DNA from: Rubrivivax sp.
GTDB taxonomy: Bacteria > Pseudomonadota > Gammaproteobacteria > Burkholderiales > Burkholderiaceae
Assembly (NCBI GenBank): GCA_016790225.1
Contig: JAEUOZ010000002.1
Span: 124,001-188,000 of the forward strand
Length of the DNA: 64,000 nt
Direction: 5' to 3'
The notes under the pieces were generated by a model. It saw only the letters and a program-made list of their open reading frames with translations, made no database searches and was not told where the DNA came from. Below are positions 6,404-27,900 of the stretch, one piece after another. The translations under genes and the position numbers were made by a program. Positions within the stretch are counted from its first letter, which is position 1, and each line of letters opens with the position of its first letter.

Positions 6404-7819
6404 TCAGGAACAGGCCGGATCGGGCGAAGCTTGGTCCAGCACGGCAGCCAGGGCATCCACGCCGAGGAAGGATGTGGCGCAGAGCTTGCCGCCCCGATCC
6501 TTCAGGCGCTTGACCACCTCTTCGGGCACCCACTGCCGGATCGGCGGCTTGCCAGGGTCGGCGCTGGCAGGCCGTGTGGACATCAGCAGGGCCGCCGTGC
6601 CGGCCACCCAGGGGGTTGCCATGGACGTACCGCTCCAGGTGCCGTAGCCTCCACCAGGAACCGTGCTGACGATCCGGTCACCGGGTGCCGAGATGCCGAT
6701 CCAGCTGCCCCAGTTGGCAAAGCCCGCCAGCTTGCGCTGCGCGTCGTGCGCCGTCACGGCCAACGTCCCCTTCACCTCTTCGGCGGCCGGGTAGGTGCGC
6801 TCCTGATCGCTGCCGCCGTTGCCGGCCGCCGCCAGCACCACGGCGGCAAAGCCGTTGTCGCAGCGTGCACGGTCGGCCGCGAAACCGGCGTCCTGCATGA
6901 AGTCGTCATCGTCGTCGGACTCGCACGTGGCCATCTCGGCCACGCGCTTGAGCAGATCGGTGGGCGTGGTGGCGCTCAGGCTGAGATTGATGATGTGCGC
7001 GCCATCATCGGTGCTCGGGTCGCCATCGGGGTCGAGTGCCCAGGCCAGTGCCTCGGCCAGGACCCAGGCATTGCCTACGCCGTTGGCGTCGAGCACCCGC
7101 ACCGGCATCAGGCGTGCACCCGGAGCCGTGCGGGCCACGATGCCCGCCACGTGAGTGCCGTGCCCAAAGCCGACACGCCCCAGGGTCCCGCCCTCGGCGG
7201 GTACGAGATCGTCGTCGACAAAGTCGCGGCCAAGCACGCGGCCGAGCGGGTCGCGCGCCCAGCGTGCGGCGAGGGCTGGGTGCTCCAGGTCTGCACCCGT
7301 ATCCAGCACCGCCACGCGCACGCCGCCGCCACGGGTGAGCTCCAGGGCCGCATCCAGGTTGATCAGCCCTGGCGCGTACTGGGTTGCATAGCCTTGCGCA
7401 CTCTCGCCGACCGCCCAGACCGAAACGCGCCGGCTCTCGGGGTTGGCCACTGCGACGTTCAGCTCGGCAGCCCGCACCGACGTCTCGCCGCGCAAGCGCT
7501 CCACCAGGACTGAAAGCTGGGTACCAGGGGCGGCGCGCAACCGGTAGATCGGCCGCTGGCCAAACTGTTCGGCCAAGGTCAGGCGGTATCGGCGCAGCAA
7601 GGGCTGGAGGGGGTAGCCGGGCTTGAGCATGAGCACGACATCGGTATTCAAGGCCACCGACAAGGGCGGCACGGACCTTGTCGACAGTGCGCGCTGCTCG
7701 GGGACAGCCGCCAGCGCCGCGGGAGCTTCAGCCGTCGGCTCGCCCCCGCCGCCGCAGGCAGCCAGCAGAGATACGGCGCACACTGCGGCCAACCTGCGCA
7801 TCGTTGTCATGCAGCTCAT
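6404..7819 (-). CDS. Subtilisin-like (S8) serine peptidase lipoprotein of the CHAT cassette
   Basis: 471 residues. The N-terminal signal peptide ends in the lipobox LLAAC (lipidated Cys22), so it should be anchored in the cell envelope. Residues about 60-130 look like an inhibitor-type propeptide. The peptidase domain covers about 165-460, with the full triad: Asp173 in VAVLDTGAD, His220 in GFGHGTHVAG and Ser399 in GTSMATP, plus oxyanion Asn334 in AAGNGG. It is therefore expected to be active. A promoter identical in form to those of the sigma, CHAT and lipoprotein genes lies 37 bases upstream. The neighbouring TPR-CHAT gene is the likely functional partner; whether either protease cleaves the other is unknown. 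Confidence 0.9.
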   Translation of the reverse strand: MSCMTTMRRLAAVCAVSLLAACGGGGEPTAEAPAALAAVPEQRALSTRSVPPLSVALNTDVVLMLKPGYPLQPLLRRYRLTLAEQFGQRPIYRLRAAPGTQLSVLVERLRGETSVRAAELNVAVANPESRRVSVWAVGESAQGYATQYAPGLINLDAALELTRGGGVRVAVLDTGADLEHPALAARWARDPLGRVLGRDFVDDDLVPAEGGTLGRVGFGHGTHVAGIVARTAPGARLMPVRVLDANGVGNAWVLAEALAWALDPDGDPSTDDGAHIINLSLSATTPTDLLKRVAEMATCESDDDDDFMQDAGFAADRARCDNGFAAVVLAAAGNGGSDQERTYPAAEEVKGTLAVTAHDAQRKLAGFANWGSWIGISAPGDRIVSTVPGGGYGTWSGTSMATPWVAGTAALLMSTRPASADPGKPPIRQWVPEEVVKRLKDRGGKLCATSFLGVDALAAVLDQASPDPACS

Positions 7820-7855: not shown

Positions 7856-7884
7856 ACAGAGACCCCAACGGCACTACCGATACA
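7856..7884 (-). promoter_or_regulatory. ECF-type promoter of the S8 peptidase gene
   Basis: On the reverse strand, TGTATC (7879-7884) and CTCTGT (7856-7861) are separated by exactly 17 bases, preceded by CCGA. It is one of four copies with the same blocks and spacing around the cassette. The distance from the downstream block to the start codon is 37 bases, normal for a promoter. Assignment to the cassette's own sigma factor is inferred. Confidence 0.8.
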
Positions 7885-7916
7885 TCGGCAACCCGGAATT
7901 TTTCGCCTGCCTTCGA

Positions 7917-10769
7917 TCATCCCGGGCCGAACAAGGTCATTGCGGCCCAGCGGAAGGGGTGCTCGCCCTCGGCGATCGCCTGCCGGTGTGCCATCTGAAC
8001 GGCCTGCGCGGGCATGTGTCCTGAGGCCAGCGCCGAGTGGAAACGGCGCATCCACACCGCCGTGCTGGCATCGTCCACGGCCCACTGGCTGGCCAGCACC
8101 CGCCGCGCACCTGCCAGCACAAACCCCCTCACCAGGCCGATCAGCTCGTCGCCCGGCGCCACGCGGCTCAATCCGGTTTCACAGGCGGACAGCACCACCA
8201 GCGACGCCCGCAGGCGCAGCGCCCGCACATCGTTCAGCGTGAAGGGCCCGTCGGCCAGCGCCAGCGCCGAGAAGGCAGGGTTGTCCGCGCGAAACCGGCC
8301 ATGACAGGCCAGGTGCAGCACGTCGGCTGCGGGTGCGCGCTCGCGCAAGCTGGCCGCGTCGCAAGCGAAATCCACGCTCACCTGCGCGTGCGTACCGAAG
8401 GCCCCGCGCACCGCCTGCAGTTCCTCGCGCACATGGTGCAGAAGCTCGCCACCAGCCCCCAGCGCCACGACGACCCCCGGCGTCTGCCAGGGCACCGACA
8501 CCTGGGAGAGCCAGCCCTGCACGCTGGGCAGCTGCGTCAGGGCCATGCGCTCGATGAGCCACTGCCGGCCATCGTGCAGGCAGCTCCACGGCACGTAGTG
8601 CAGCACGCGGTGCGGCACCACCATCAATCGGGCAACGCCCACGAGATCCGGCTCTGCGGCTGCGAGCAGGTGCTGGTAGACCTCCTGCGCCTGGCGACGC
8701 ACACGTTGCTGCAGCTGCTTCTGGTGGGCATGAAGCCCGGCCGCCGGGTAGCGAGGCGTGTCGATCTGGAAGCGCAGGCTCTCGATGGCGCGGGCCAGCT
8801 GCGGTGCTTTCAGGCGGAGGACGCGCACCGCTTCGCGACGCACCAGCACCAGCGTGAGCTCGTCTCCATCCTGATGCGCACTCAGCAGCGCGTCGTCGGC
8901 CGCCAGTCGCTGCTGGGTTCGCATCAGGAGGGCCGCTTCGCCGTTGAGCGCGCCGTCGGGGCTGCGCGACATTCCGGCACCGGCACCGCCCAGCAGGGCC
9001 TGCCGGCGCGCGGCCTCCAGCCACGCGGCCTCTGCCGCGCGCAGTGCCACCGCCTGCGCGGACGCGCCTGAGGCCTCGCCCTGCAGCACCGTCTCGCGCC
9101 AGCGGTCCCTCAGCAATCGCAGCCGCGCTGCGGAGGCCTCATCCTCCGGCACCTGCTGGCCAGGTGCATCCGCCGCCGCCGACAGGGCGGTGGCCAACGC
9201 CCGCGCGCGGCCGCGCTCGATGGCGCCCAGCACCGCGCCTGGGTCGGGCGCCGCAGCCGCTGACGTCGCCCGCACCAGCACGTCATGCGCGCGCTCGGCG
9301 AGTGCCGCGATCGCCGAACGGAACTCGTCACCCGGCAGCGCATCGCGCGCCCGCTCCACCAGATCCATGGCTTCGCCCAGCGGCACCACAGCGTCCTCGT
9401 GACGCCCTTGCTGCCAGTACCACTCACCCAGGCCCACACACGCCGCCAGCTGCAGCGACAACACACCCTGGGTGCGACCCGCGTCCAACAGCTGCTCGAA
9501 GTCGACGCGTGACTGCACGTGATCGCCCAAAGCCAGGCGCGCCTGGGCCACCAGGCTCAGCGCCTGCCCGTGCGCGCCGCTCATGTGCAGGGCAGCCAGG
9601 GTCTCGCTCGCCCTCAGCGCCAGCGGCAAGGCCGTCTGCGCCTGCCCCGCCGACAGCTCGAGCGCCGCCTCGGCGACGTCGGCGTCGGCCAGGGCTGCCA
9701 GGTTGCCCGCCTCCAGGAAGATGGCGCGTGCATCCTGCAGGCAGCGCCGCGCGAGCACCAGATGGTTCAGGCGGCCGTGCGCACGCGCCTTCTCGATCAG
9801 CGCCCGCGCACGCTCGGTGGGCAGCTCGAGCTCATGCGTGGCCGCGATGACCTGGTCATACAGGTTGACCGCCTCGGGCAGCAGGTTCAGCGCGAGATAG
9901 GTGTCGGCCAACGCACTCGAGGCCTCCATCAGCTGCTGCGGCGCAGCCCCCACCTGCTCGAGCTGGCGTACCGCCTGCACCAGATGGGCCAGCGCGGTGT
10001 GCCACTGGCCGCGCAGCAGCTCGATGCGCCCGATCGCCAGCTGGGCCTGGCCTTGCAGCGGCCCCAGCCCGCGGGCCTCGGCCCGCTGGCGCGCGCGCTC
10101 GTTCACCCGCAAGGCCTCGGCAAACTGGTACTGCCAGGTCAGTGCCTGCGCCAGGCCGATGTCGGCCTGGATCGACAGCACGGCATTGCCCACACGCGCA
10201 CCGCGCACGCTGGCGCTGCGGTAGTGGCGTGCTGCCTGATCGTGCAGATCCAGGCGGGTGAGCAGTGTGCCCAGGTTGATCTCCACCTTGCCCGCACCCA
10301 GCTGGTCACCCGCAGCCAGCAGTCGGTCACGGGCATCCTCGCCACAGTGCAGCGCGTCGTCGTGACGCCCCAACATGGCCAGGGCGATCACCTTCGGCAC
10401 GCGCGCCTGCGCGCCATCCAGCGCCAGGCCTTCTCGCTCGAACAGGCCGCAGGCCTGGTCCAGCCGTGCCAGGGTGTCTTCAAGGCGCCCTTCCACCAGC
10501 ATGGCAATGGCGGCCGTCCAGTCACTCATCGCCTGCACGACCGGGCTCTCGCCGTGGCGCTCGGCCAGCGCGGCGGCGGCCGCGGCGCAGCGCAGCGCAC
10601 GCGGAGGATCCTGCGTCCACGACTGGAGTGCCGCGTCCTTCAGGGCGCGTGCAAGCCCCATGGCCTGCAGCGGCTGCAACCGCGCAAGCTCCGCTGGCGC
10701 CGGGGCTGCGTCCGCGTCCGTCAGGGATTGCGCCAGCGAACGAAGGTCAGCAACGAAAGGGTCGGACAC
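7917..10769 (-). CDS. TPR-repeat protein with C-terminal CHAT (caspase-like) protease domain
   Basis: 950 residues from a GTG that lies 2 bases after the stop of the upstream gene, implying translational coupling. Residues about 60-560 are helical tetratricopeptide-type repeats rich in Leu/Ala. A coiled linker follows, and the CHAT domain occupies about 670-950. The caspase-type dyad is visible as His823 in HLACHGRF and Cys863 in VLSACETG, so catalytic activity is plausible. CHAT proteins with TPRs include gingipain-like and separase-like peptidases and the CRISPR-associated TPR-CHAT; no CRISPR is near here. An ECF sigma factor, a subtilase and two lipoproteins share its regulation. The long in-frame extension upstream of 10769 overlaps the preceding gene and was rejected. 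Confidence 0.9.
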   Translation of the reverse strand: MSDPFVADLRSLAQSLTDADAAPAPAELARLQPLQAMGLARALKDAALQSWTQDPPRALRCAAAAAALAERHGESPVVQAMSDWTAAIAMLVEGRLEDTLARLDQACGLFEREGLALDGAQARVPKVIALAMLGRHDDALHCGEDARDRLLAAGDQLGAGKVEINLGTLLTRLDLHDQAARHYRSASVRGARVGNAVLSIQADIGLAQALTWQYQFAEALRVNERARQRAEARGLGPLQGQAQLAIGRIELLRGQWHTALAHLVQAVRQLEQVGAAPQQLMEASSALADTYLALNLLPEAVNLYDQVIAATHELELPTERARALIEKARAHGRLNHLVLARRCLQDARAIFLEAGNLAALADADVAEAALELSAGQAQTALPLALRASETLAALHMSGAHGQALSLVAQARLALGDHVQSRVDFEQLLDAGRTQGVLSLQLAACVGLGEWYWQQGRHEDAVVPLGEAMDLVERARDALPGDEFRSAIAALAERAHDVLVRATSAAAAPDPGAVLGAIERGRARALATALSAAADAPGQQVPEDEASAARLRLLRDRWRETVLQGEASGASAQAVALRAAEAAWLEAARRQALLGGAGAGMSRSPDGALNGEAALLMRTQQRLAADDALLSAHQDGDELTLVLVRREAVRVLRLKAPQLARAIESLRFQIDTPRYPAAGLHAHQKQLQQRVRRQAQEVYQHLLAAAEPDLVGVARLMVVPHRVLHYVPWSCLHDGRQWLIERMALTQLPSVQGWLSQVSVPWQTPGVVVALGAGGELLHHVREELQAVRGAFGTHAQVSVDFACDAASLRERAPAADVLHLACHGRFRADNPAFSALALADGPFTLNDVRALRLRASLVVLSACETGLSRVAPGDELIGLVRGFVLAGARRVLASQWAVDDASTAVWMRRFHSALASGHMPAQAVQMAHRQAIAEGEHPFRWAAMTLFGPG

Positions 10770-10771
10770 GC

Positions 10772-11284
10772 TCAGGCCGGCACGTCGATCGTCGGCAGCG
10801 CCAGCTCCCACGCTGCGGTCTTCAACACCAGCAAGCAGGGCCCCTGGGGCACGCCATCGAAGCTGAACTCGCTCAGCTCGTCCCAGCTGGCCTGCCGCAT
10901 TTCCTGCCCCGCCCGCAGCTCGGCCGTGCCGGCCGTGTCCGGGCCCAGCACCTGTCCGGACAGCCGCCACTGGCGGCCCTTTGGCGTGTGCATGGGGCTG
11001 ATGCGGATGTCGATGTCCCGACCCTCGCTGAAGAACAACAACTGGCGGGTGCCTTCCGCATCGCTGCGCAGACCGAAGGCCTGCTCGCTGCCCGAGGCGC
11101 TGTCGAAGCGCAGCTCCGCGCTCAGGCGCTTGAGCAGCCCCGCATGCACCGGTTCGGGCAGGCGTGCGCTGAACAGGCCGATGGCCTGCTGGATCAGCCG
11201 CTCCGGCGCCTCGTCCAGGCCGCGCATCCGTGACAGACGCGCAACCAGTTCATCATCTTCGGATTCAGGCGGTCGCGGGCTCAT
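10772..11284 (-). CDS. Cassette protein of unknown function between sigma factor and TPR-CHAT
   Basis: 170 residues, acidic at the N-terminus (ESEDDELVARLSRMRG), no signal peptide and no membrane segment, so cytoplasmic. Residues about 1-60 look helical. The rest looks like beta strands ending in WELALPTIDV, which suggests a small Ig-like or beta-sandwich domain. It lacks the usual membrane anti-sigma architecture, although its place after the sigma gene would fit a cytoplasmic regulator or an adaptor or substrate for CHAT. It is coupled to the CHAT gene (2-base gap) and has its own cassette promoter 30 bases upstream. I do not recognise the family. Confidence 0.75.
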   Translation of the reverse strand: MSPRPPESEDDELVARLSRMRGLDEAPERLIQQAIGLFSARLPEPVHAGLLKRLSAELRFDSASGSEQAFGLRSDAEGTRQLLFFSEGRDIDIRISPMHTPKGRQWRLSGQVLGPDTAGTAELRAGQEMRQASWDELSEFSFDGVPQGPCLLVLKTAAWELALPTIDVPA

Positions 11285-11313
11285 GGCGGAGGATGGAAGG
11301 GTGATGCTGCGAC

Positions 11314-11342
11314 ACAGAGGACCATCGACACCGTCTGATACA
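11314..11342 (-). promoter_or_regulatory. ECF-type promoter of the 170-residue protein/TPR-CHAT unit
   Basis: On the reverse strand, TGTATC (11337-11342), 17 bases, then CTCTGT (11314-11319), preceded by ACGA. The bases between and after the blocks also resemble the S8 promoter, which suggests duplication of one promoter. The start codon is 30 bases beyond the downstream block. Confidence 0.8.
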
Positions 11343-11356
11343 TCGTTGGTGGAAGA

Positions 11357-11953
11357 TCATGCGCGCTCGCGAGACAGCTTGTCCATCAGGACGCGCAGCT
11401 TGTCGAGAACCCGGGCGCGGGTCGGTCCGATGCTGCCTTCGGCAATGCCCAGGCGCAAAGCGATCTCGGCATAGGGCAGCGGCTCAGCCTGCAGGAACAT
11501 CAGTTCCACCAGCTGCCTGCCGCGCGGATCCAGGCGCTCGACCGCCAGGCTCATCAGGTGTTGCTGCTGCAGATCAGCCAGCAAGGCCTCGGGCAAGGGA
11601 TCCGGCGAAGGCAGCTGGTCGAAGGGATCACCGCCCTCCCCTTCGGGCTCATCCGGGCGCGGGTCCAGCATGCCGACACGTGACTGCGCCTGCAAGCAGC
11701 GCAAGGTCTCCCGGCGCGCGGTGGTGACGAGCCAGGCCCGCACGCGGGAGGCATCCTCGATGCGATCCAAGTACTCCACCAGGCGAGCAAAGCAGGCCTG
11801 GAACACATCGGCCGCGGCCTCTTCGCTCAAGCCTGCCCTGCGCGGCACGGTGTAGATCAGGCGCTGATAGCGACGCACAAGCGTGCTCCATGCTGCGTGG
11901 CGGCCGGCCCTGCACTGAGCGATCAGTTCTGCATCGTCGAGCTCGTCGTACAC
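11357..11953 (-). CDS. ECF-type sigma-70 family RNA polymerase sigma factor
   Basis: 198 residues from GTG 11953 (VYDELDDAELIAQCRAGRHA). Region 2 spans about 8-80, with RRYQRLIYTVPRRAGLSEEA, ADVFQACFARLVEYL and the RAWLVTTARRE signature. Region 4 spans about 135-190, with LDPRGRQLVELMFLQ and the helix-turn-helix YAEIALRLGIAEGSIGPTRA. The order and length are those of an ECF sigma. No transmembrane anti-sigma gene adjoins. A copy of the cassette promoter lies 108 bases upstream, so the gene probably activates itself. An open frame runs far upstream on the same strand but only this part has family similarity. The exact start is uncertain because the GTG has only a weak GGGA site. Confidence 0.87.
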   Translation of the reverse strand: MYDELDDAELIAQCRAGRHAAWSTLVRRYQRLIYTVPRRAGLSEEAAADVFQACFARLVEYLDRIEDASRVRAWLVTTARRETLRCLQAQSRVGMLDPRPDEPEGEGGDPFDQLPSPDPLPEALLADLQQQHLMSLAVERLDPRGRQLVELMFLQAEPLPYAEIALRLGIAEGSIGPTRARVLDKLRVLMDKLSRERA

Positions 11954-12060
11954 ACACCATCCCGCAGGCGGAGAACCCCATTTGCCGCTGTGGACATCAT
12001 GCCATCGCTGCGGACACGGGCTGCGCAGGGCCCATGCGTGCGGCCTCAGGGCGGCCGAAG

Positions 12061-12089
12061 ACAGAGCGCGCAACTCGCCCATCGATACA
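12061..12089 (-). promoter_or_regulatory. ECF-type promoter of the sigma factor gene
   Basis: On the reverse strand, TGTATC (12084-12089), exactly 17 bases, then CTCTGT (12061-12066). The four bases before it differ (ACTT rather than CGA), making this the most divergent copy upstream of the first block. The implied leader to the GTG start is about 108 bases. Self-activation is typical of ECF sigma genes. Confidence 0.72.
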
Positions 12090-12124
12090 AGTCGTCTCCC
12101 TGGGGATGGGTGCGGCAGCTTCGA

Positions 12125-12153
12125 TGTATTTCCGCGCCTTGGCCCCGCTCTGT
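12125..12153 (+). promoter_or_regulatory. ECF-type promoter of the divergent lipoprotein gene
   Basis: TGTATT (12125-12130) preceded by TTCGA, exactly 17 bases, then CTCTGT (12148-12153). It points toward the lipoprotein gene that starts 134 bases downstream. It sits 36 bases from the sigma gene promoter, so the 333-base gap between the two genes is a divergent promoter pair. I see no other element in that gap. Confidence 0.72.
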
Positions 12154-12286: not shown

Positions 12287-13477
12287 ATGATGAACCGCAC
12301 CCGCACTCCCCGAGGACAGCTCCTCGCCCTGGGCCTGGCCGCGATGCTGGCCGCCTGCGGCGGCGGCGGCGGCGACGAACCCCTGGCCGACACCGAGCAG
12401 CCCCTCGACGCCGACGGGCGACAGGAAGCCCTGGCCGTCATCCCCACCGGACTGCGCGCGGCACCGGCCGGCCTGAGCGGCAACGTGGTCTGCACCAACT
12501 GGCGCATTGGCGCCGTGGTGCTGGACAACGTGGAAGTCGCCCCTGGCGCGGCCTGCCAGCTCAACGGCACGATCATCCGCGGTTCGCTGCAGGCGCAGCG
12601 TGCGGCGGTCATCGATGCCAACCGCGTTCAGGTCGCCGGCGACGTGCAGTCCGAACAAGGCGCCTACATCACCGTTCGCAATGCCAGCCGGGTCTCCGGC
12701 AACATCGAGGTGATCGAGGGCGGCGGCGTCGATGTGCGCGCGAGTAGCGTGGGCGGCGGCATCCTGATCGATGGCCTGACCGGCGTGGTCCTGCTGAGCG
12801 GCAACCAGGTCATCGGCAACGTGCAGGTCACCGACAACCTGGGTGGCGGCTCGATCGTCAACAACCGCATCACCGGCGCGCTGCAATGCACGGGCAACTT
12901 GCCGGCTCCGCTGGCCAGGGGCAACACCGCCTCCATCATCGAAGGCGACTGTGCGGCCGGTGGTGGCAACCCGCCGCCACCACGGCTCACAGGCAACGTC
13001 ACCTGCGTGGGGCTGACCATCGGCGCCATCCCGCTGGACAGCGTGATCGTCCCGGCCGGTGCGACCTGCTCCCTGGTGGGCACGCGCCTGAACGGCAGCA
13101 TCGAAGTGGGCGCAGGTGCCAGCCTGGTTGCCGATGGCGTGACGGTGACCGGCGGCCTGATCGCCGACGGTGCAGCCCGCCTCACGCTCGGCGGCACCAG
13201 CACGATAGGCGGCTCCGTGCAGGTGCAGCGCGGCGGGGCCACCAGCATCGTCGGCGCCACGGTCCGTGGTGACCTGCAGATCGATGCCATGGCCGGCCCT
13301 GTCGTGGCCTCGGTAAACCAGGTCTCGGGCAACCTGCAGGCGATGGCCAACCGTGGCGGCGTGACCCTGTCGGCCAACCGCATCGTCGGCGTGATGCAGT
13401 GCAAGGACAACCTGCCCGCCCCCGCCGGCAGCGGCAACGCCGCCAGCCTGAAAGAAGGCCAGTGCCGGGGCCTGTGA
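12287..13477 (+). CDS. Lipoprotein with two tandem Cys-containing beta-helix-like domains
   Basis: 396 residues with a signal peptide ending in the lipobox MLAAC followed by five Gly, so envelope-anchored. The mature part is a near-exact architectural duplication. Unit 1 covers about 63-222 and unit 2 about 234-394. Both begin GNVVC/GNVTC, continue with IGAVVLDNV/IGAIPLDSV, have a second Cys in AACQL/ATCSL, and end LQCTGNLPAP/MQCKDNLPAP and EGDC/EGQC, giving four matched Cys per unit. Between them are short repeats with hydrophobic alternation like a right-handed beta-helix or bactofilin. GAGG precedes the start. It shares the cassette promoter and ends in a strong terminator. The family is not recognised; possible roles are a peptidase substrate or a surface sensor. 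Confidence 0.82.
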   Translation: MMNRTRTPRGQLLALGLAAMLAACGGGGGDEPLADTEQPLDADGRQEALAVIPTGLRAAPAGLSGNVVCTNWRIGAVVLDNVEVAPGAACQLNGTIIRGSLQAQRAAVIDANRVQVAGDVQSEQGAYITVRNASRVSGNIEVIEGGGVDVRASSVGGGILIDGLTGVVLLSGNQVIGNVQVTDNLGGGSIVNNRITGALQCTGNLPAPLARGNTASIIEGDCAAGGGNPPPPRLTGNVTCVGLTIGAIPLDSVIVPAGATCSLVGTRLNGSIEVGAGASLVADGVTVTGGLIADGAARLTLGGTSTIGGSVQVQRGGATSIVGATVRGDLQIDAMAGPVVASVNQVSGNLQAMANRGGVTLSANRIVGVMQCKDNLPAPAGSGNAASLKEGQCRGL

Positions 13478-24960: not shown

Positions 24961-27900
24961 TCAGCGCAGCAGCTGGGTACTCGGCTGGACCGTCAGCAGG
25001 TCCAGGCGCGCCGTGGGGCCGATCAGGCCGCTGCCTTGCAGCCGGATGCGGTTCACGCCGGCGACCAGGGAGACGCTGACGGTCGGCGTGCTGGCGTAGC
25101 GTGTCCACGCGCCCGAGGGCGGCAGCACGAATATCGGCTGGGTGGCCACGCTGCGCTGGCGCACGCCGTTGACCCACAGGTCCACCGCGGTCGAGCTGCC
25201 CAGCCCGTTGGCGTAGCGCAGGCTCAGCGTGGCGCGGCCCGCCCGAGAGGTCTTCAGGAACAGGTCCACCGTGGCGGCCGGTCCGCCAAGCTGGCTGACC
25301 ACCGCCCCGCCCGAGGCGCCGGCCACGGTCTCGCGACGCGCCGTCCCGGCCAGCACACCGCGTTCGACTTCCAGGCGCAAGGCGCCGGTGGCGGGCAGCG
25401 CCGGGGGTTCGCCGGGCGGCGGCGGCACGAAGGGATCCGAGGGTCGCGGCGGCGCCGGCGCCGCGCCGGGCGGGCCGCCGAGCTCCTGCAGATAGCGCAC
25501 CAGGGCCTGCAGATCGGCGTCTGTCATCAGCGTCGGCGGATGGGCGAGGATGGCCTCCTGCAGCGTCGGCGCAGAGCCGTCGTGCAGATAGGGGGCGCTG
25601 CTCCAGACGTCGATCAGCGTGGGCACGTCGATGCCGGTCAGCGGCCCGCCGAGCCGTTCTCCGCTGGAGCGCTTGATGGTGCCGATGACTGCGGCAGGCG
25701 CAGCCGCCGAGCCCGTGAACGTGGGCCAGATGTGGCAGTTGATGCAGTACTGCTCGGTGAAGACCTGACGCCCACGCTCAGCCTGCGCGCTGTAGCTGCC
25801 ATCGGCCGGCCGCAAGGGGCTGAAGTCGAAGCTGTCCAGTGACGCGACATAGGCTGCCAGCGCATCCAGATCGGCGCTCACGCCGGCCTTGCGATCGCCC
25901 AGCGGCTGGCTGCGCGTGCCTGTATTGAACTGCGCGTCACTCATCAGACCCGTGCCGCCCGCCAGCTGGCGGATCTGCTGCTCGAAATCCTGCACTTCAT
26001 CGAAGTTGCCGCTCCAGTGCAGCAGCCCGTGCGCGCCCGCACGCCCACGCAGGCTGGTGGTGTTGCGCAAGCCTTCGCCGAACTGCTTGAAGTCCCAGAC
26101 CCGGCCGTCGTGGCCGCCGTCGTTGTGGCAGCTGGCGCAGCTGATGTACTTGTCGCGCGACAGCCGGATGTCGGCCGCGTCGTAGAAGAACTGCTTGCCC
26201 AGCAGCACGGCCGGCGTCAGGCGTTCCGCGCCGATGGCCGCCATCGTGCCCAGCAGCGGCGTGTCCAGCAGACCGGTGTAGAGCGGGCGCAGGTCGTGCG
26301 CCGAGACGCTGCGGTCCATGAAGTTGTTGACGAACAGCGTCAGGCCGTCCGGGGCGATCGCCAGCCCTTGCGGCGCCCGGCCCACATCGATGCGCATCAG
26401 CTGCTGCCCCGAATGCGCATTGACCACCGCCACCTCGCGGCTGGTCTCCAGGGCCACAAAGAGCAGGTTGCCTCGCGGATCGAACACCGCCGCGCTGGCC
26501 ACGCTGGCGTTGTCGTGATCGATGCGGCGCGACAGATCTTCGCTGCGCGAGGCGATCACGACCCGCGAGCTGACGGCCCGCACGGTGTTCTGGAAGTTCA
26601 GCGGCAGGCCATCGCGCTGCTGGCCGCGCAGGATGTTGTCCTGCTTGGACGGCACGAAGCCCTGGCTGCCGTCCGGCGAGATGGCCAGCGCGCCCAGGTA
26701 GTTGGGCAGGCCCCGGCCGGTATTCTCGGTATCGGCCACGGCGCTGTGGCGCAGCGTGACCGTGCCTGCCTGCGACAGCGAGGCCGCATTCACGACGAAC
26801 AGCTCTCCGCCCTGCGTGCCGGGCGTCACGGTGATGGTGCTTTCACCGGGCAGCGGCGCGCTGATGAAGCGCGAGGCGAAGAGCGTCGCGCCATCCCCGC
26901 TGATCGCCAGGTGACGCACGGCAGCGGGCAGCGAGATCTCGCCCGTCTGGGCCGCGCTGGCGGTGTCGAAACGCAGCACCTGGCCTGTGCCCTCCAGGGC
27001 GACAAAGGCGGTCTGCCCCTGGGGCGCCATCACGATGCCGAAGGGCTGGCTGCCGCGCGGCAGGCCGATCGTGCGCAGGAGGTTGCGCGTCTGCGCATCG
27101 ATCACGCTGATGCTGGCCGAGGCCTTGTTGGTGACCCACACCTCGCCCTGCTCCGAGATCGCCAGCGCGCGTGGCGCGGCGCCCACCGGCACCTCGGCCA
27201 GCCGCGTGCGGCCCAGGGCATCGAAGACGCTGACCGAATCGTTGTCCTGGTTCACTACCCACAGCCGCGCACCGGCAGGCTGCAGGGGCTGGTAGGCGAT
27301 GTTGGTCGAGGCCCTGGCGGCCTGGGCGGTCAGCGGCAGGTGCACCTGCTGCATGAAGGTGCGGCTGACGATGCCGCCGCGGTCGTCGGTGGCGGATACC
27401 GTCACGAAGAACAGGCCGGCATGGGGGTAGCGGTAGCTGGCCGAGGCGGAGCTGGACCAGGCCGTCGGCGCAGAACCATCGCCCCAGTCCACGCGGTAGC
27501 GCGGGTTCACGCCCGTGGCGCTGGCGGTCACCGTCAGTTCGCTGCCCGACATCACCGCCCCGGCGCTGGACAGGGGCTGCAGCACCAGCGGCACGATGCT
27601 CTCTCCGCTGACCTGCCAGCGAAACGTCGTGACGGCGTTGCTGCTGCCGTCGCTGATCGCGATGACCGGGTCGTAGCTGCCCGGGGTGGTGAGCATGCCG
27701 CTGATCACGCCCGTCAGAGGGTCGATGCGCAGGCCGGGCGGCAGGCCCGCTGCAGACCAGCGTACGCCGGCCGCGCCGTTGGGATCGCTGCCCACCACGG
27801 CCAGGTTGATGGTCGTGCCCGTGCTGTGGGTCTGGTGTGCAGGCGGCGTGATCACCGGCACCTGGGCCGCATCGCGCGCCGGCACCGTATTCATGCGCAC

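Follow-up and report, generated by a model that had tools for sequence, protein, structure and literature searches.

What does the sigma factor of a caspase-like protease cassette transcribe, and what would hold that sigma factor back and set it free? We addressed this question in a 64,000-nt stretch of DNA from Rubrivivax sp. (GCA_016790225.1, contig JAEUOZ010000002.1, positions 124,001 to 188,000 of the forward strand), referred to here as the window. The window contains a cassette that encodes an extracytoplasmic function (ECF) type sigma factor, a protein of 170 residues (p170), a caspase-like protease with TPR and CHAT domains (TPR-CHAT), an S8 subtilase and an adjacent lipoprotein. A two-block site, TGTATY-N17-CTCTGT (Y being C or T), recurs upstream of these genes and of their relatives in other bacteria. 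Our data indicate that the sites very likely define a dedicated regulon of the cassette's sigma factor, a conclusion drawn from sequence comparison, and that p170 is related to zinc-finger anti-sigma factors.

Four copies of a two-block site

The site has exactly four exact matches in the 64 kb of the window and none in 100 dinucleotide shuffles of it. Allowing up to two mismatches added one site (at 26719, with two mismatches), which is within chance given that the shuffles average 2.0. A preliminary description of the window had reported the same four copies, with the positions and strands that are listed in Table 1, and all of them were recovered. The CGA triplet that it saw in front of three copies is likewise present, at 7884, 11342 and 12125, and across a wider set of 87 aligned sites the bases at -3, -2 and -1 lean to C, G and A (36, 46 and 53 sites, respectively). 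In our view the cassette's sigma factor likely uses all four sites as promoters. Site 2 is the likely promoter of a p170-CHAT operon; the putative start codon of TPR-CHAT, a GTG at 10769, lies two bases past the p170 stop codon, so that both genes probably form one operon.

Spacing, position and orientation across phyla

For comparison we used 80 sigma factor loci, the best 80 of 112 confirmed matches in a contig scan with an alignment of 22 sigma proteins and two sigma peptide patterns. Together with the window they make up 81 sources (1,243,706 bases); organism names of loci and genomes are those of the record titles. Because the loci were picked through the sigma gene, counts among them describe conservation and not natural frequency, and related loci are not independent.

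Two exact half-sites stood 17 bases apart 75 times and 18 apart seven times among the 81 sources, with zero cases at spacings of 10-16 or 19-25. Positional counts allowed at most one mismatch and spacings of 16-18, and were compared with a background that takes no account of kinship (50 first-order Markov sequences for each region). A site follows the sigma gene in 48 of the 81 sources (28 with no mismatch and 20 with one; 0.12 expected), and the gap between CHAT and S8 holds a site in 29 of 40 (19 with no mismatch and 10 with one; 0.08 expected). The region after sigma was taken as 300 bp where no p170 was found after sigma, and was 2.1 kb in L031. These counts are slightly low, as the L040 site, which overlaps a long sigma open reading frame (ORF), and the L061 site, which is cut by the region end, were missed. 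Site-bearing sources come from records titled Burkholderiales (or its genera), Chloroflexi and Acidobacteria. Exact sites within 450 bp upstream of p170 or S8 domains pointed toward the gene 47 times and away from it 0 times, where one site may count for more than one matched domain. The start codon was taken as the first ATG or GTG in frame downstream of the site, and lay at most 63 nt from it in 23 of 25 p170 cases and 16 of 20 S8 cases.

The sigma gene itself has a site within 400 bp upstream in only three of the 81 sources, namely the window, L067 and L069 (0.14 expected). Activation of the sigma factor by itself, as previously suggested for the window, is thus not a general feature. L067 (titled Actinomycetes) and L069 (Acidobacteriota) have closely similar translations and sites; since they are so alike despite different phylum titles, at least one of these bins is doubtful, and one of them is probably mislabelled.

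Variants of the site were seen in some loci. Six Acidobacteria loci (L028, L030, L031, L034, L038 and L039) share the -10 variant CACTGT at a spacing of 17; in their sigma-p170 gap, four have TGTATT and two have CGTATT as the -35 block. One sigma-to-p170 gap carries the site in three tandem copies (L035:3117-3265).

Occurrence of site and sigma factor in whole genomes

The preliminary description had named hundreds of scattered matches as the observation that would speak against a dedicated promoter type. Twelve whole genomes, which we chose among those with a fetched sigma locus, contain one to seven exact sites each, 46 in total, while the reversed pattern occurs three times. Judging by their coordinates, 26 of these sites belong to a sigma locus, including a second complete sigma-p170-CHAT-S8 cassette (L112:5479-10783) in the genome of a Piscinibacter (G001) and a cassette without CHAT (L113). 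Among named isolates, Rubrivivax rivuli (L011) and Piscinibacter defluvii (L006) carry the cassette.

Site and sigma gene go together in 200 genomes drawn from the family to which the Rubrivivax rivuli genome (G002) belongs, with sigma genes called at E <= 1e-25. An exact site is present in 21 of the 200 (35 matches; reversed control, 9), comprising all nine sigma-bearing genomes (21 matches) and 12 of the 191 others (14 matches; Fisher p 2.5e-10). When the first base of the -10 block was left free, the nine sigma-bearing genomes gave 25 matches against 8 in nine other genomes of the family, with two reversed matches in each group; these nine comparison genomes were picked for size, and one (G037) was already known to have an exact match. 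The Chloroflexi class, represented by 158 genomes, has 72 matches in 34 genomes. With sigma genes called at E <= 1e-30, the site is present in 15 of 31 sigma-bearing genomes (46 matches) compared to 19 of 127 others (26 matches; p 1.6e-4), and at a cut of 1e-68, which was set after seeing the list, in 12 of 17. One genome of this set (G214) has a partial sigma gene with an internal stop. At most 16 sigma candidates per genome were scored in the family and at most 21 in the Chloroflexi, so some sigma genes may be missed. The fixed spacing, the 47:0 orientation, the conservation across phyla and the joint occurrence of site and sigma gene in both sets of genomes all favor the earlier view that the sites represent a dedicated promoter type.

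p170 is related to zinc-finger anti-sigma factors

Downstream of sigma, 70 of the 81 sources encode a p170 homologue, in 69 of them within 365 bp. Of the sources that extend 5 kb or more downstream, CHAT comes after p170 in 44 of the 48 in which p170 follows sigma, compared to none of the six in which it does not; L060 is an exception with its CHAT match on the opposite strand. All three of p170, CHAT and S8 are present in 40 of the 54 sources of that length. p170 had been recognized as a cassette member in the preliminary description, and that holds; its membership in an anti-sigma family had been missed.

This membership is apparent from homologues that carry an extra N-terminal stretch with the zinc finger motif H-x3-C-x2-C, which come from Acidobacteria, Zixibacteria, some Chloroflexi and a few other records. 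The motif is found in 20 of 73 p170 homologues compared to 8 of 2419 other ORFs of 140-400 residues, and is absent from the window p170 and from all listed Burkholderiales homologues. Among 52 aligned p170 members, Pfam identified zf-HC2 in seven and CarboxypepD_reg in five, neither of them in the window protein. A homologue-led p170 profile matches RsiW (E 1.3e-5), DdvA (0.003), PDB 3hug (0.0042) and weakly ChrR (0.072), and every one of these matches falls in the extra N-terminal stretch. PDB 3hug, titled probable conserved membrane protein in the library, is presumably the mycobacterial anti-sigma factor RslA. Of 22 database relatives of the window p170, nine are named hypothetical protein and two are named anti-sigma factor RsiW by the Joint Genome Institute (JGI); P0141, one of these two, shares 42% identity with the p170 query over 91% of its length and has an intact zinc finger motif.

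The AlphaFold model of the L028 homologue (mean predicted local distance difference test score, pLDDT, 86.5) has four N-terminal helices followed by a beta-sandwich, and its best Foldseek match is ChrR (E 2.2e-4), although the superposition is loose. The model of the window p170 has two helices, which correspond in the alignment to the final part of the anti-sigma domain, and the beta-sandwich. A zf-HC2 and/or FecR protein takes the place of p170 after sigma and the site in three loci from Chloroflexi (L058, L061 and L066; Table 1). L058 and L066, which are two of the 48 sources with a site after sigma and extend far enough downstream, have no p170 after sigma and no CHAT, and in L061 likewise no p170 follows sigma.

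A proposed circuit and its alternatives

We propose that the sigma factor, p170, TPR-CHAT, S8 and the adjacent lipoprotein work as one cassette, in which sigma reads the sites and is freed when CHAT cleaves or displaces p170; judging from the comparisons above, we hold the chances of this proposal to be evenly poised. In it p170, which would still bind sigma despite the loss of its zinc finger, restrains the sigma factor. TPR-CHAT would act on p170, perhaps after its TPR part or the beta-sandwich of p170 has sensed a signal, and the released sigma would read the TGTATY-N17-CTCTGT sites. Active sigma would then produce more p170 and CHAT, which could reset the switch, along with the exported S8 protease. 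An active sigma factor that makes both its own brake and the protease that lifts the brake would fit the placement of the site before p170-CHAT and S8, and not before sigma, in most relatives. In the window, the sites before sigma and the lipoprotein may add positive self-activation and one further output.

Several observations weigh against this proposal. In the window p170 the anti-sigma domain lacks its first half as well as the zinc finger, so that this protein may no longer bind sigma; its model gave no Foldseek match at E <= 0.001. L072, L075 and L080 have sigma and p170 and no CHAT, the Rubrivivax rivuli genome has a sigma-p170-S8 arrangement without CHAT (L113:3508-7101), and in L033, one of the six sources without p170 after sigma, an ORF resembling p170 and a fragment of CHAT lie upstream of sigma instead. 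At least one pattern of the catalytic dyad is missing in 8 of 56 CHAT ORFs (the Cys pattern in seven; one of the eight is a 242-residue fragment), a triad pattern is missing in 9 of 49 S8 ORFs, and a lipobox-like pattern is present in only 13 of the 49. We sought sigma residues that co-vary with the -10 variant and found just one column, in the linker. The earlier expectation that matches would fall almost only before cassette genes did not hold, as 20 of the 46 exact matches in the 12 genomes are scattered outside any sigma locus; among those inspected, a few precede a gene for a predicted lipoprotein or for a relative of a protein found after the site at other places (L111, L115, L118, L120 and L127), and many have no obvious target gene. 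In one of the nine sigma-bearing genomes of the family (G143), both exact matches are more than 600 kb from sigma and hence may be due to chance, and a one-mismatch site (TTCTGT) lies 4 kb past sigma. In the Chloroflexi class the reversed pattern gave 27 matches against 72, so chance matches are commoner there, and an exact site is missing from half of the sigma-bearing genomes. Of the earlier claim that five proteins form one system, the dedicated regulon is very likely, while a fixed set of five does not, since the site also precedes DUF4956 and other genes.

One alternative keeps the regulon and makes the Burkholderiales p170 an adaptor or substrate of CHAT with no anti-sigma role, sigma being controlled mainly through its own transcription from site 3. 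The missing zinc finger of the window p170 and its listed Burkholderiales homologues, the absence of the first helices from the window model and the position of site 3 upstream of the window sigma all agree with this. A site upstream of sigma is nevertheless confined to 3 of the 81 sources, p170 keeps its place after sigma in 70, and the segment that p170 retains can be aligned to the final part of the anti-sigma domain of RsiW, and we regard this alternative as rather unlikely. We think it less probable still that there is no anti-sigma step and that CHAT and the subtilase act directly on sigma. The passage on ECF54 in PMC8999054 reports such a proposal from a similar neighbourhood; against it speak the membership of the protein next to sigma in a zinc-finger anti-sigma family and the export signal predicted for the window S8, which would keep this protease from meeting a cytoplasmic sigma factor.

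Two further explanations concern the sites themselves. They might be operators of another regulator that travels with the cassette, and the comparative nature of the evidence for their promoter role leaves this a little room. The two unequal, non-palindromic blocks, the strict spacing of 17-18, the single orientation and the association with the sigma gene make it very improbable. Chance resemblance of four sites in a GC-rich window has a negligible probability: the shuffles contain none, spacing is fixed and position is conserved, and the conservation across phyla has already refuted it.

With these results, a list of neighbouring genes (ECF sigma, CHAT, subtilase and carboxypeptidase-like protein) becomes a testable circuit with a candidate promoter, anti-sigma factor and protease. 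The site may also serve as a ready reporter and as a means to list likely targets in sigma-bearing genomes. Should CHAT cut p170, caspase-controlled transcription in bacteria would extend far beyond type III-E CRISPR loci, and Craspase would look like a CRISPR-guided form of an older switch.

Comparison with known systems

The neighbourhood of the window sigma factor resembles that of ECF54. According to the ECF54 passage of PMC8999054, control of this group by proteolytic enzymes without an anti-sigma factor was proposed, as carboxypeptidase, subtilase and CHAT proteins are conserved nearby. The window sigma likewise stands beside a CHAT protein, a subtilase and a protein of carboxypeptidase(-regulatory-like) type: CHAT and S8 are found in the window itself, and CarboxypepD_reg is found through 5 of 52 p170 homologues and not in the window p170. 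By its neighbourhood the cassette matches the ECF54 type, and since the window fits that neighbourhood this type of cassette is already known. Differences from the published account are that PMC8999054 describes this type of control as mainly actinobacterial, whereas our records are mainly titled Burkholderiales, Chloroflexi and Acidobacteria, and that its ECF54 passage mentions no anti-sigma factor, whereas we trace the third protein to a family of zinc-finger anti-sigma factors and find a conserved site. What our data add is the link of the carboxypeptidase-like protein to anti-sigma factors and a site shared across phyla. The CC0, CC BY and CC BY-SA part of PubMed Central yielded ECF54 (in one review) and Craspase, with no ECF54 promoter in the passages retrieved; a published one may exist.

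A second likeness is to type III-E CRISPR, for which PMC10028731 reports that Csx29 (TPR-CHAT) cleaves Csx30, an inhibitor of CASP-sigma, and that three CASP-sigma motifs are predicted within the locus. Both there and in the window, one locus combines a TPR-CHAT protein with a His-Cys dyad, a sigma inhibitor (a candidate in the window), an ECF sigma factor and predicted sigma sites. The window cassette differs in having a subtilase and a lipoprotein in addition, and a p170 of 170 residues. None of the five cassette proteins matches Cas7-11, the 64-kb window contains no CRISPR-like repeat triple, and no chain named Csx30 appears among the PDB profile matches of p170 (the Csx30 content of the library was unchecked). 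Because no Cas7-11, CRISPR repeats or relation to Csx30 was found, we do not claim that the cassette belongs to type III-E.

The homologues of p170 from Acidobacteria, Zixibacteria and some Chloroflexi share H-x3-C-x2-C with ChrR and RsiW, together with the four-helix anti-sigma domain modelled for L028. PMC8999054, where it treats ChrR, describes a soluble anti-sigma factor with a C-terminal sensor domain, and the p170 homologues similarly show no clear transmembrane stretch. Unlike ChrR, p170 ends in a beta-sandwich of CarboxypepD_reg type and not in a cupin, a CHAT gene adjoins it, and the zinc finger is lost in the window copy. PMC8195603 offers another parallel, in which EACC2-caspase neighbourhoods contain an ECF sigma factor and a TPR protein and a transcriptional output was proposed. 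The shared elements are a caspase-fold protease and an ECF sigma factor; the protease there is a caspase instead of a CHAT protein, and the EACC2 part of that paper mentions neither p170 nor S8.

A broader reading of these likenesses, which we offer tentatively and with the balance somewhat against it, is that the cassette is a CRISPR-free counterpart of the Craspase-sigma system in Pseudomonadota, Chloroflexota and Acidobacteriota. TPR-CHAT, acting inside the cell, would sense a signal and cut a dedicated soluble anti-sigma factor with a beta-sandwich sensor, thereby freeing the ECF sigma factor to read a single, nearly invariant promoter of 12 bases, and the Burkholderiales branch would have shed the zinc finger, leaving proteolysis as the sole release step. 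If true, this would supply the missing regulator of ECF54 and suggest that type III-E CRISPR recruited a pre-existing caspase-sigma switch.

Genes of the cassette and further genes after the site

Table 1. Positions of the sites and genes discussed, in the window unless a locus is named
Feature	Position	Strand	Remarks
Site 1, TGTATC-N17-CTCTGT	7884-7856	-	36 nt from CTCTGT to the S8 start codon
Site 2, TGTATC-N17-CTCTGT	11342-11314	-	29 nt from CTCTGT to the p170 ATG at 11284
Site 3, TGTATC-N17-CTCTGT	12089-12061	-	107 nt from CTCTGT to the sigma GTG at 11953
Site 4, TGTATT-N17-CTCTGT	12125-12153	+	Divergent; 133 nt from CTCTGT to the lipoprotein ATG at 12287
S8 subtilase	6404..7819	-	Peptidase_S8, E 8.8e-35; lipoprotein-type signal LLAAC (by eye)
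TPR-CHAT (caspase-like)	7917..10769	-	CHAT, E 3.4e-56; TPR_12, E 4.5e-14 (Pfam)
p170 (170 aa)	10772..11284	-	Zinc-finger anti-sigma family member; zinc finger missing in the window copy
ECF-type sigma factor	11357..11953	-	Regions 2 and 4 only; start GTG 11953
Duplicated lipoprotein	12287..13477	+	Start ATG 12287; signal AMLAAC (by eye)
Anti-sigma-type gene (zf-HC2/FecR)	L058:10633-11352		Pfam
Anti-sigma-type gene (zf-HC2/FecR)	L061:9916-11248		Pfam
Anti-sigma-type gene (zf-HC2/FecR)	L066:3084-4595		Pfam

The sigma factor has the composition of an ECF (group IV) protein, with regions 2 and 4 only in about 200 residues. Pfam identified Sigma70_r2 (E 2.9e-9) and Sigma70_r4 (E 4e-6), the NCBIfam model sigma70-ECF was matched at E 1e-22 (80.5 bits, cut-off 42.9), and SigW (PDB 5wuq) is the closest solved relative of the sigma profile A4 (E 9.3e-15). 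TPR-CHAT contains both dyad motifs, HLACHG and VVLSACETG. It matches five PDB sequences at E <= 0.01, all named CHAT domain protein, which we take to be the TPR-CHAT chains of Craspase; against the NCBIfam Csx29 model it scored 40 bits, far under the cut-off of 300. All three catalytic motifs of the subtilase (D-T-G, H-G-T and G-T-S-M) were found. S8 and the lipoprotein are predicted to be exported because of their lipoprotein-type signals, identified by eye, and expression of S8 likely depends on sigma. The lipoprotein is a tandem duplication with halves 41% identical across 163 residues (E 8e-36). Neither it nor the window p170 has a Pfam match up to E 1.

Other genes also follow the site. 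DUF4956 genes stand after it in five Burkholderiales loci (L013:17872-18513, L002:9169-9762, L036:15572-16171, L048:4970-5602 and L059:1-637), with Pfam confirmation for L013 and L002 and assignment by similarity or by eye for the others; the site is exact in four and has one mismatch in L048. DUF4956 is possibly an extra member of the regulon. A 529-residue pentapeptide-repeat protein follows a copy of the site with a spacing of 18 (L004:7363-8952), and homologues of the lipoprotein, both shorter and longer, stand after the site in L010, L022 and L120.

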